Assembly (NCBI GenBank): GCA_001871075.1
Contig: MNUP01000039.1
Span: 1 to 9,901, forward strand
Length of the DNA stretch: 9,901 nt
Source of the DNA: Candidatus Desantisbacteria bacterium CG1_02_49_89
Lineage (GTDB): Bacteria > Desantisbacteria > UBA1551
Direction of reading: 5' to 3'
This document shows positions 2,107 to 9,564 of the stretch, one piece after another. The translations under genes were made by a program, and so were the position numbers. The first letter of the stretch is position 1; every line of letters begins with the position of its first letter. A model generated the notes under the pieces. That model was given only the letters and a program-made list of their open reading frames with translations, had not been told where the DNA came from and ran no database searches.

Positions 2107-3666
2107 TTATTTTACAGGATAAAGATACACCGCATCTATGCCCAGGAAATATCCTGTCGTTGAGGTGCCGGCAAGCTTCGATCTCTCGTTAGCGCCCTTG
2201 CACACGAATTTCAGCAGGTGCTCACCTGGTTCCAGCCTGCGCTTACCGAGGCTGATCTCCCTTGCTATCACGGTCGGGCTGTAAAAATCTTTCGAACACA
2301 CGTTCCTGCCGTCAAGATAAATATCGTAAATACCGTAATCCCAGGAAAATGTCATGACGGCCCTAACAATATAATCGCCTGTTTCCTCAACGTCAAAAGG
2401 CAGCTCGACTCTGGCACTCTTGGTATCTGAGATAAAAAGGATCTGGGCTCCACCGCTCCACATGTCCCCATCCTGTTTCATTCTCGCAAAAGGCTTATAG
2501 TTCCCCTTTAGCATATACTTCTCGGCCTCAATTGCAGTATACGCGGGAATTCTTTCTTTTGCCGGAGGCACAGAAGCGAACCGCTTTGCCTTCCCTGCCT
2601 GGTACCAGAAAGCAACGCTTGAGAAATCGTCAGAGCGCTCGTCAAAACCGCTGGTAAATTTTTTCTTTTTCTCGTCCCAGACCGCGCCCTTGTGTTCTAT
2701 TGTCACCTTAAGCGAAGCCCCGAACGCGACCGGGTCAGGTATATGCCAGCGGTAAACCGTTCCCCTGTCCCCCGATTCAAATCCCTCCCAGAAGGTAACT
2801 CCGTAAAAAGGGTTGTTGAATTCCCTGAACCCCCACGCGTCGCAGAAATAATCCTCGCTTCCCGTTCCCCGCAGAGAAGGCTTTTCCTCGCCGTCAATAT
2901 AAAACCTGTCATCGCCTTCGCCGAACCATCCCGGCTGGTTCACCCTTACCGAAAGCACTGTGCCGACGTAGTGGCCTTTGCCCTTCGCGTCAAGGATAAG
3001 GTAATCCTCGCCGCTCCTGCATGGAAATTCCTGGCGGTATTGCGCATGGAAATACGGGACGCTTTCAGCGAGCGCGGGCAGTTTCTGCCAGTCCACGTAC
3101 CAGAAAAGCGCGTCAACCTGCTTATCCGAATCATTGGTCACGGTTATTTTAGCTGATTTCCTGAAAGGCATGGGCCAGTAGCAGTTATACGCCCTTCCTT
3201 CCGAGGAAACAGCCACAGGCGTTGAATTTAGCGTCCTGATGCATCCGTGGCCTACGGCGAAAAAATCTCCCAGAGGGGACTCAACCGCCGGCTCTGTGTC
3301 CCCGTCCCAGTAAATACGCAGGGTCATTGTCCGGGGGTAGTATTTGTCTTTCGCGGAAACAGTGAACCAGATATGCGTGATCCTGCCCGGGCCTTCAAGC
3401 TCCGCTACCTTCAGGGTCTTTCCCTGCGCAATAGGCCTTGCGTCGCCGTTGCCGTTCTTCCAGTTGGGGTCGGCACTTGAGCTGCGCATGGAACGGTATT
3501 CCCTGGGCATATCCAACCCTTCAAGCCCCGTGCCCTGTGCCAGGACAAGCTGCCCGCCCCAAAGGGGCGAGGTCTCGCCCCGATGAAATATCGGGGCGGA
3601 AAAGTTGAAGGTTGAAAGTTGAAAGGTAAAAAGAAGAAATATAATGAAGCATCTTAATTTCATCAT
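2107..3666 (-). CDS. Secreted DUF2961 / GH172-family glycoside hydrolase-like protein
   Basis: A 519-residue protein: an N-terminal export signal, a DUF2961 (GH172) catalytic region at about residues 47-330, and a C-terminal beta-sandwich, carbohydrate-binding-like region at about 375-519 (AIEAEKY, then TGDYIVRAVM, ending GIDAVYLYP). The hallmark GTGSEDYF is at 267-274. Characterised GH172 enzymes act on difructose- or arabinofuranose-type glycosides using two glutamates; Glu271 in GTGSED is the likely nucleophile and Glu294 (FWEGFE) a candidate acid/base by spacing. GEGDDRFYIDGE (249-260) is also family-typical. The signal region is odd. Residues 15-22 come from a CTTTCAA heptamer array and 24-38 from a GC-rich palindrome, followed by LVLAQ, which itself looks like the end of a signal peptide. 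Cleavage could fall after Ala24 or after Gln44. The ATG pair at 3661-3666 has only a weak AGG upstream. It probably works outside the cytoplasm, before the intracellular enzymes encoded alongside. Substrate not predictable. Confidence 0.85.
   Translation of the reverse strand: MMKLRCFIIFLLFTFQLSTFNFSAPIFHRGETSPLWGGQLVLAQGTGLEGLDMPREYRSMRSSSADPNWKNGNGDARPIAQGKTLKVAELEGPGRITHIWFTVSAKDKYYPRTMTLRIYWDGDTEPAVESPLGDFFAVGHGCIRTLNSTPVAVSSEGRAYNCYWPMPFRKSAKITVTNDSDKQVDALFWYVDWQKLPALAESVPYFHAQYRQEFPCRSGEDYLILDAKGKGHYVGTVLSVRVNQPGWFGEGDDRFYIDGEEKPSLRGTGSEDYFCDAWGFREFNNPFYGVTFWEGFESGDRGTVYRWHIPDPVAFGASLKVTIEHKGAVWDEKKKKFTSGFDERSDDFSSVAFWYQAGKAKRFASVPPAKERIPAYTAIEAEKYMLKGNYKPFARMKQDGDMWSGGAQILFISDTKSARVELPFDVEETGDYIVRAVMTFSWDYGIYDIYLDGRNVCSKDFYSPTVIAREISLGKRRLEPGEHLLKFVCKGANERSKLAGTSTTGYFLGIDAVYLYPVK
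3555..3598. repeat. GC-rich double palindrome within GH172 signal region
   Basis: Three overlapping inverted repeats: CGCCCC/GGGGCG (3555-3560 and 3564-3569, AAA loop), GGGGCGAG/CTCGCCCC (3564-3571 and 3574-3581), and CGCCCCGAT/ATCGGGGCG (3576-3584 and 3590-3598, GAAAT loop). They can form alternative hairpins. The element lies in frame in the GH172 gene and encodes residues 24-38 (APIFHRGETSPLWGG), which do not look like a natural signal peptide or mature N-terminus. Confidence 0.75.
3605..3625. repeat. Heptamer array encoding signal-peptide core (GH172)
   Basis: Plus-strand units GTTGAAG, GTTGAAA, GTTGAAA, followed by the related GGTAAAA. On the coding strand the unit is CTTTCAA, and 21 nt of it encodes the hydrophobic cycle LSTFNFQ in any reading frame without a stop. 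It specifies residues 15-21 (FQLSTFN) of the GH172 signal region. The 15-mer TGAAAGTTGAAAGGT (3614-3628) recurs exactly at 9514-9528 in the PorV/PorQ-like gene, in the same frame. Confidence 0.75.
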
Positions 3667-4847: not shown

Positions 4848-4866
4848 GCTTCCCCCTTTTCAAATG

Positions 4867-4923
4867 CAGTGGCCAGTGTCCCGCCCCTTCGGCGGGTCGC
4901 CGTAGTGGCAACCAGTGGCCAGT
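4867..4923. repeat. CCCGCC hairpin flanked by CAGTGGCCAGT copies
   Basis: CAGTGGCCAGT occurs exactly at 4867-4877 and 4913-4923. Between them is the hairpin CCCGCC (4880-4885), loop CCTTC, GGCGGG (4891-4896). The right flank continues with a 7-bp period (CCAGTGG, CCAGTAG, TCAGTTA). It occupies the start-proximal half of the 130-bp gap between the TIM-barrel and oxidoreductase genes, just upstream of the oxidoreductase ribosome site. Confidence 0.7.
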
Positions 4924-4944
4924 AGTCAGTTAAAAAGTTTTAAA

Positions 4945-5829: not shown

Positions 5830-5842
5830 ATTGCCTCCAATG

Positions 5843-5914
5843 CGTGTCAGAGTGTCTCCGAAGAGTCCGTATGCTCCGTCCTTTCGGAGTCATCGGACAA
5901 CGTGTCAGAGTGTC
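5843..5914. repeat. Hairpin flanked by CGTGTCAGAGTGTC direct repeats
   Basis: CGTGTCAGAGTGTC is present exactly at 5843-5856 and 5901-5914. Between them is a two-step stem: GTCCG (5865-5869) pairs with CGGAC (5894-5898), and CTCCG (5874-5878) with CGGAG (5885-5889). The flanks are 8-bp units (AGAGTGTC, ARCGTGTC), the reverse complement of the GAYACGYT family seen elsewhere. The right flank is also inverted relative to CTCTGACACG at 5959-5968. It lies directly upstream of the TIM-barrel gene's ribosome site. Confidence 0.75.
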
Positions 5915-5931
5915 AACGCAACTGCAAGGAT

Positions 5932-8643: not shown

Positions 8644-9564
8644 TTAGAACTTGGCGCCTACAGTTACCCTGTGCGTATAACCCAGGTCCCCGTAAGGAAC
8701 AAGGGCGTAATCTATGCCCAAGATGCCGATCTTAAAGCCGGCACCGCAAGTTAGGCCCGCAAGCGCCCCCAGGGTATTGTTTATCGCGCTGTTATACTTG
8801 TAACCTGCCCTTATGGCAAACACAGGATGGACCCAGTATTCAATACCTGCTCCCACAGCCCATATAGAATCAAGGATGGAGTAGTTCAGGTCAGATGATA
8901 GAGTAAGCTTGCTGTCAGCAAACTTATTGGCAATGCCGACCTTCAGGTTCATAGGCAAAGGGCTTGCCTCTGTGATGAACGGGGCTTCGTAGCCCATATT
9001 CTGCAGGGCAAGGCCCATAACCAGGCCTTCCTTGTTCAGCTTGTACTGCAGACCAATATCTGCGGCCACACCAAGCGCTGACTTGTCATCTAACTGCTGG
9101 TTGATGATCTTGACTGTGCCGCCAAGGTTCAGGCGTTCTGAGAGCGTCTTAGCGTATGATACGGCTATCGCCAGGTCATTTGCAGGCACTGACCCAAGCA
9201 GAGCTCCGGCAATATCCCTTCTTTCAATGTCTGTGATATACAGGTAGGTTATACCTGCGCCTATTGTTCCGCCAAGAGCCGGCTGGCAATATGCAAGATA
9301 CTCATACCTGATAGCCTGAAACCATTCTGTATGGGTAAAGGTTACCTGCTTACCTTCTGATAGGGACAGGCCGGATGGGTTCCAGAACAGGGCATTGATA
9401 TCATCTGCAACAGCGACAAAGGCTTCGCCCATTGCAACAGGGCGAGAACCTACACCAAGTTTAAGGAAGGTGGCGCCTGTGGTTCCGGGCCCGGCGGCAA
9501 ATAAGCTCAAAGCTGAAAGTTGAAAGGTGAAAGTTAATGCAATTACAAATATAATCTTTTTCAT
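8644..9564 (-). CDS. PorV/PorQ-family outer-membrane beta-barrel protein
   Basis: A 306-residue protein with a signal peptide (basic MKK, hydrophobic 4-22, likely cleavage after Ala23-Ala24) and the family signature at residues 35-67: KLGVGSRPVAMGEAFVAVAD, then ALFWNPSGLS. The rest alternates like transmembrane beta strands and ends GYTHRVTVGAKF, with the terminal aromatic typical of outer-membrane barrels. PorV in Bacteroidota shuttles type IX secretion cargo to the sortase; PorV/PorQ-like proteins are also common in candidate phyla, where their role is less certain. The gene upstream (9607-9901) ends in a sorting-type domain, which fits a carrier-cargo pairing. AAGGA lies about 4 nt before the ATG. 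Residues 11-21 are encoded by a CTTTCAN heptamer array, and the ribosome site borders another array. A strong terminator follows. Confidence 0.88.
   Translation of the reverse strand: MKKIIFVIALTFTFQLSALSLFAAGPGTTGATFLKLGVGSRPVAMGEAFVAVADDINALFWNPSGLSLSEGKQVTFTHTEWFQAIRYEYLAYCQPALGGTIGAGITYLYITDIERRDIAGALLGSVPANDLAIAVSYAKTLSERLNLGGTVKIINQQLDDKSALGVAADIGLQYKLNKEGLVMGLALQNMGYEAPFITEASPLPMNLKVGIANKFADSKLTLSSDLNYSILDSIWAVGAGIEYWVHPVFAIRAGYKYNSAINNTLGALAGLTCGAGFKIGILGIDYALVPYGDLGYTHRVTVGAKF
9506..9533. repeat. Heptamer array encoding signal-peptide core (PorV/PorQ)
   Basis: Plus-strand units CTCAAAG, CTGAAAG, TTGAAAG, GTGAAAG. On the coding strand they encode residues 11-20 (TFTFQLSALS) of the PorV/PorQ-like signal peptide. 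The 15 bases at 9514-9528 are identical to 3614-3628 in the GH172 gene, and both specify TFQLS. Confidence 0.75.

Follow-up and report, generated by a model that had tools for sequence, protein, structure and literature searches.

Nested repeats in coding sequence: heptamer arrays and a two-hairpin palindromic element in the signal peptide of a GH172 gene from Candidatus Desantisbacteria

The N-terminus of a GH172 (DUF2961) protein of Candidatus Desantisbacteria bacterium CG1_02_49_89 is encoded in part by a tandem repeat and a GC-rich palindrome. We analyzed the surrounding stretch of 9,901 bp (the window; it is contig C130 of a genome of 2.48 Mb assembled into 150 contigs), together with targeted stretches and two samples of contigs from the rest of the genome. 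Genes were taken from open frames, and simple rules of hydropathy served to identify signal peptides.

The GH172 gene and its signal peptide

The GH172 gene lies on the minus strand (2107-3666) and was listed among the open reading frames as a protein of 519 residues with an N-terminal signal peptide. PF11175 matched residues 112-356 (E 1.7e-85; 286.7 bits against a gathering cut-off of 27), the catalytic domain shared with GH172/DUF2961 glycoside hydrolases. The signal peptide is the sole oddity. A translation start at 3666 is favoured because the homologs L013, L015 and L022 also open with a signal peptide and, after it, the same GL-x-x-L region. Separately, a GH172 paralog at G000:C53:8117-9154 (L021, L040) contains three in-frame stops and is apparently a pseudogene.

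The N-terminus reads MMKLRCFIIFLLF-TFQLSTFNF-SAPIFHRGETSPLWGG-QL-VLA/QGTGLEGLD, where the slash, here and below, marks a point of cleavage or insertion. By inspection of hydropathy, residues 1-13 (MMKLRCFIIFLLF; 3628-3666, minus strand, as for all parts that follow) form the n-region and hydrophobic start. Residues 14-22 (TFQLSTFNF; 3601-3627) are encoded by an array of CTTTCAA heptamers, ACCTTTCAACTTTCAACCTTCAACTTT on the coding strand, which was found by pattern search and reported by TRF at 3601-3625 with period 7 and 88% matches. CTTTCAA occurs nine times in the window against 2.6 expected, a count reached in 0/200 shuffles; reversing the pattern gave no usable control, since CTTTCAA read backwards is one of its own rotations. 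Residues 23-38 (SAPIFHRGETSPLWGG; 3553-3600) are encoded by a 48-bp two-hairpin palindromic element of the form T-CCGCCC...GGGCGG-G, delimited by its dispersed family, its fold and its empty-site join. Folding of the single strand gives two hairpins at −19.8 kcal/mol (z = −6.0), equalled in 0/200 shuffles. The next six bases, CAGCTT (3547-3552; residues 39-40, QL), correspond to one further array unit, as seen in the empty-site join TTCAACTTT/CAGCTTGTCC. VLA (residues 41-43; 3538-3546), with cleavage before Q44, is the likely original signal-peptidase site by inspection of the −3/−1 rule.

Excision of the 48 bp leaves MMKLRCFIIFLLFTFQLSTFNFQLVLA/QG, a signal peptide of normal appearance, and the CTTT/CAGC junction of this copy is common to three other copies. 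The insertion places the VLA/Q site at residue 43 instead of residue 27 and so increases its distance from the hydrophobic core by 16 residues; processing of the GH172 signal peptide may therefore be impaired.

These results bear on a preliminary description of the locus. It had assigned residues 15-21 to CTTTCAA units and residues 24-38 to a 44-bp palindrome; both features are present, and their extents are now corrected to residues 14-22 plus 39-40 and to 48 bp encoding residues 23-38. Its arithmetic was right, in that any heptamer read in triplets yields a single seven-residue cycle whatever the frame, which for CTTTCAA is LSTFNFQ without a stop; the opposite strand (TTGAAAG) has TGA in every frame. 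The reading of LVLA/Q as an older signal-peptide end, with the site itself probably placed by the −3/−1 inspection, was backed, as was the view of the palindrome as an insertion into a pre-existing signal peptide, given its clean removal here and likewise from four other signal peptides and from enzymes. GH172 homologs bearing signal peptides, at identities of ≤47%, contain no counterpart of the palindrome-encoded stretch, and signal peptides with FQLSTFN-like segments do recur in unrelated proteins of the genome.

A dispersed two-hairpin element and its copies inside genes

The 16-bp core of the element, GGGCGAGACCTCGCCC, has 74 exact copies in the genome and its reversed control none. The 5′ half (TCCGCCC-N6-20-core) was found 66 times in the genome and 0 times in 58 other genomes, including another species of the phylum. 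Copies follow the plan T-CCGCCC-hairpin 1-GGGCGAGACCTCGCCC-hairpin 2-GGGCGG-G, are mostly 47-57 bp long and have fixed boundaries, with the terminal T in 66/67 and the terminal G in 64/67. The hairpin arms covary: the first variable pair was Watson-Crick in 97% and 93% of distinct loops, compared with 38% and 37% after permutation. Thus, the arms vary and stay complementary, indicating that structure, beyond sequence, is kept. The idea that the element is special in keeping six open frames was rejected, as the effect was weak (15/64 copies against 7/64 shuffled).

Most GTDB matches to the palindrome pattern were set aside as apparent chance in GC-rich genomes; only six contigs (L148, L149, L155, L156, L157 and L160) resembled relatives. 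Similar palindromes, in one or two copies, occur on a few Omnitrophota and Elusimicrobia contigs and in one unclassified bacterium, and the 57-bp palindrome of L149 lies in frame within an open frame of 2666 residues. Therefore, the family extends beyond this genome.

Among the 64 strict full copies analysed, 16 are in frame inside open, mostly recognisable genes. Signal peptides host the element in the window GH172, L062, L099, L170 (PorV) and L172. Enzyme hosts are D-Ala-D-Ala ligase (Ddl; L175), HisF (L109), dihydrolipoamide dehydrogenase (Lpd; L184), fumarase (L173) and DnaE (L168), and further copies lie in a radical-SAM protein (twice; L110), an aconitase-family protein (L167), a B12-binding protein (L169), a GH127 protein (L106, at a contig end) and the N-terminus of a WD40 protein (L188). 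The host genes are unrelated, and the copies occupy varied positions in both orientations. A variant copy in ThiL (L049) is outside the strict pattern and is not counted among the 16; L183, with a C-terminal copy in an uncertain gene, was set aside, as were L084, L091, L100-L104, L166, L177, L181, L187, L192 and L193, which are probably not real genes or not clean.

In-gene copies measure 48, 51, 54 or 57 bp, multiples of 3 in 16/16 cases against 13/46 elsewhere (Fisher p 2.5e-7); these copies were selected by intact frames, so the result is proof of the boundaries and of clean insertion more than of selection. The five signal peptides regained normal form once the element was removed. When the enzyme hosts were aligned with solved structures, conserved sequence picked up again on both sides of the insert. 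HisF carries 64 extra residues, element included, between reference residues 134 and 137, and in Ddl the repeat-coded stretch replaced a helix-loop region and is not a simple addition. DnaE has one copy in the genome, and Ddl and HisF have one clear copy each; in every case this is the interrupted copy, and therefore the proteins presumably work.

Heptamer arrays in the genome and in signal peptides

Arrays were counted in a 445-kb sample of the genome, with contigs chosen mostly by number. Intergenic DNA (55.8 kb) held 81 of 111 period-7 arrays, which were of many units. Signal-peptide DNA (12.9 kb) held 10 (nine called automatically, of which L255:5628 may be upstream of the true start, and L243:2963 by eye), and other coding DNA (376 kb) held 7 internal ones. 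Thus, 10/17 arrays in coding DNA were in signal peptides (P 2.6e-11), at a density ~40 times that of other coding DNA. Per 100 kb, period-7 arrays number about 25 in this genome, 0.6 in the sister genome and about 1 in loci from other phyla. Periods 8 (6.7 per 100 kb) and 9 (2.2) also exceeded the sister genome (0.6 each) in the own-genome sample L234-L273, indicating that array formation is not strictly a 7-bp process.

Many different units occur across the genome. On the coding strand, pyrimidines make up 57-85% of nine clear signal-peptide arrays compared with 35-56% of arrays inside other proteins, which fits selection for a hydrophobic reading in signal peptides and for polar loops elsewhere. 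LeuRS (L256:10555-13044) lacks the palindrome and has two distinct heptamer arrays in frame, which encode VQCPVSSVQ and IQDPGSSIQDP; the latter peptide fits the polar-loop reading. Orientation also differs by location: intergenic CTTTCAA arrays often lie a few bases past stop codons in the TTGAAAG orientation, with a stop in every frame; those in signal peptides run in the coding sense. As a separate observation, the 1386-residue open frame of L046 (C120) combines a CTTTCAA array in its signal peptide with two internal arrays in the reverse orientation (SQLKVESSKLKVEKKEE), which no longer contain the repeat's stop codon.

A second case in the window is the PorV-like gene at 8644-9564, where pattern search and paralog comparison placed a CTTTCAA-type array in the signal peptide (9513-9533, minus strand). 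In PorV paralogs 88-90% identical to it, the unit at this position varies, CTTTCAA giving LTFTFQLSALS and CCTTACA giving LHLTLYTLHG; the signal peptides of the divergent paralogs L219-L221 are ordinary and about as long. Because array-bearing signal peptides are of ordinary total length and close PorV paralogs bear different heptamers, the array looks like in-place turnover or overwriting of a signal peptide, not an extra block. In the PorV signal peptide of L170/L218 (C36), two palindromic repeats, TCCGAATGGATCCCTTTGGGACAA and the two-hairpin element, sit in one array.

Insertion order, rival explanations and mobilisation

When the element was excised, terminal T and G included, many flanks fused into an unbroken period-7 array. 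In a flank-join test, 14/61 copies scored above threshold, compared with a mean of 1.5 (maximum 4) for re-paired flanks; the window copy scored modestly because its right side has a single array unit. Clear empty-site joins were obtained for Ddl (AGTCCACAGTCCACGGTCCA/CAGTCCACGG), HisF (CCTTACACGTAACACGTTA/CACCTTACACC), the radical-SAM gene (TTTAACTTTCAACTTT/CAACCTTCAACTTT), Lpd and fumarase. The preferred target approximates YTW/CA, and no target-site duplication was seen at the element, the flanks joining into continuous arrays. The array thus came first and the palindrome second. Many copies, of the 47- and 52-bp classes, adjoin other repeats outside heptamer arrays.

Two other composites were noted in the window: at 4865-4935, CCCGCCCCTTCGGCGGG lies within a CAGTGGC array, and at 5840-5920, a CTCCGAAGAG...CTTTCGGAG hairpin lies within a GTGTCAG array; from these, other hairpin families may share the habit of nesting in arrays. 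Positions 1-55 hold what we take to be a CGTC-type (RPE-4-like) dispersed repeat, read on the minus strand as GTCATTGCGAGGAGTG...GAAGCAATCTCGA, and the same type seemingly precedes the L047 open frame.

The order of events contradicts the earlier treatment of residues 15-38 as a single insertion, since the array (14-22, 39-40) was in place before the palindrome (23-38). An origin in one composite mobile block, as that treatment implied, would have brought array and palindrome into each gene together; the two often adjoin, and the array-coded residues of Ddl and HisF also appear foreign to their families. However, the same palindrome is found in arrays of CTTTCAA, CCTTACA, AGTCCAC and CAGTGGT and also outside arrays, most arrays lack it, and we regard joint arrival as unlikely. 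A different concern is that FQLSTFN is an ordinary convergent signal-peptide sequence, a pyrimidine-rich strand coding for hydrophobic residues and signal peptides being the main coding location. This is very improbable: the repeat is exact in DNA, synonymous sites included, other units give very different peptides in the same place (LHLTPYT, LSPFTFH, VHCPLSTVC), and arrays reach their highest density in intergenic DNA and are present in cytosolic enzymes as well.

Misjoining of contigs at short repeats could make the element appear to lie in genes, and the assembly is indeed fragmented and rich in such repeats; but in many cases (Ddl, HisF, Lpd, fumarase and DnaE) a single gene continues in frame from one flank to the other, all 16 in-gene lengths are multiples of 3, and arrays run on across the join, leaving such an artefact scarcely credible. 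The compensatory changes that preserve both hairpins would suit a palindrome that is not selfish DNA and is retained as a functional RNA or DNA structure (e.g., one acting in translation or mRNA stability). Against this, Rfam gave no match in the window, the scatter over unrelated genes, positions and orientations fits self-spread, and hairpins are also expected of an element recognised as single-stranded DNA; a functional structure therefore seems quite improbable.

The explanation that we favour, and hold to be highly probable, is that heptamer arrays formed, a two-hairpin element then inserted precisely, and both became coding sequence. Arrays of many units are spread genome-wide, mainly between genes and also within them if they read without a stop. 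Those in signal peptides have a pyrimidine-rich unit that reads as hydrophobic residues and forms the core together with the residues leading to the cleavage site. The element inserts precisely at YTW/CA-like sites, without target duplication and often inside arrays, and copies of multiple-of-3 length leave the host frame open. The window copy, of 48 bp, entered the GH172 CTTTCAA array and added 16 residues between the core and the old VLA/Q site. Evidence for the array layer lies in the pattern of the repeats, and that for the element layer in the reconstructed empty sites. The preliminary phrase "protein evolution by repeat insertion" suits the palindrome; the array looks more like signal-peptide turnover than an added insert. 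The proposed absorption into signal peptides occurs and is not special to CTTTCAA, as several other heptamers behave in the same way.

Because of its hairpins, lack of target duplication and short preferred target, we infer by analogy that the element was moved by a single-strand (Y1/RAYT-type) transposase, as are REPIN-like elements. The genome has 10 Y1_Tnp loci; no RAYT gene was flanked by the element, and no core lay within about 1.5 kb of these loci. One RAYT pair or locus, L201 (C23) 1941-2164, is flanked by a different tandem repeat family, GTAACTCAGGGCTAAAGCCCTGAAGTTTTCAAACCTGAAGGTTTGAGTTAC. Many 47-bp copies of the element sit at the GTTA/C end of the GTAACTCAGGGCTAAAGCCCTGAAGTTTTCAAACCTGAAGGTTTGAGTTAC repeat. 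The insert is probably selfish DNA with little effect on the host, and the permissiveness of signal peptides and surface loops would account for its tolerance.

Rickettsia palindromic elements (RPE), also found in Wolbachia, are in-frame palindromes in unrelated housekeeping genes whose proteins are presumed functional (PMC3767692, PMC10969869). The present element is likewise palindromic, dispersed and in frame in unrelated genes (16 cases), and DNA polymerase III alpha is hit in both systems. Unlike RPE, which measure about 100-150 bp, it is mostly 47-57 bp (48-57 bp in genes), is unrelated in sequence, lies inside heptamer arrays, has a non-rickettsial host and is frequent in signal peptides; its T...G ends also differ from the RPE-4/6 type, with a CGTC tag at one end (PMC3733652). 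REP and REPIN repeats are mobilised by RAYT and can be intragenic (PMC3733652). Paired GC-rich hairpins, dozens of copies, no observed target duplication, occasional intragenic location and Y1 transposase genes in the genome are shared with them, whereas a GTAG or CGTC end tag and an adjoining RAYT are lacking; unlike a MITE, the element has no target-site duplication. The arrays resemble the TAACTGA repeats of Beggiatoaceae and cyanobacterial STRR in being 7-bp direct arrays, mainly intergenic (81/111 here), with stops in one orientation and an open seven-residue cycle in the other (PMC4679880); MacGregor described this logic of orientation for the TAACTGA repeats. They differ in having many units per genome with none fixed, in being far commoner in coding DNA and in being built into signal peptides. 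A literature search turned up no account of signal peptides that contain heptamer arrays, nor of palindromes lying within heptamers.

Rickettsia and Wolbachia are the best-known hosts of in-frame palindromic insertions, which have often been deemed a quirk of intracellular bacteria. At least 16 such insertions are now seen in another lineage; their boundaries are exact, their empty sites could be reconstructed, and the array clearly preceded the hairpin. Arrays and element may together form a two-tier selfish system in which arrays are landing pads for a single-strand-mobilised two-hairpin element; we advance this only tentatively, and, if true, arrays in signal peptides and enzyme loops would be hot spots adding in-frame peptides to essential proteins. 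Ddl, HisF, DnaE, Lpd and LeuRS offer natural insertion mutants for tolerance assays. Signal peptides made largely of tandem heptamers provide a concrete route from repetitive DNA to functional protein, and the arrays and the nested hairpin element, repeatedly becoming coding, represent selfish DNA turned into new protein sequence.
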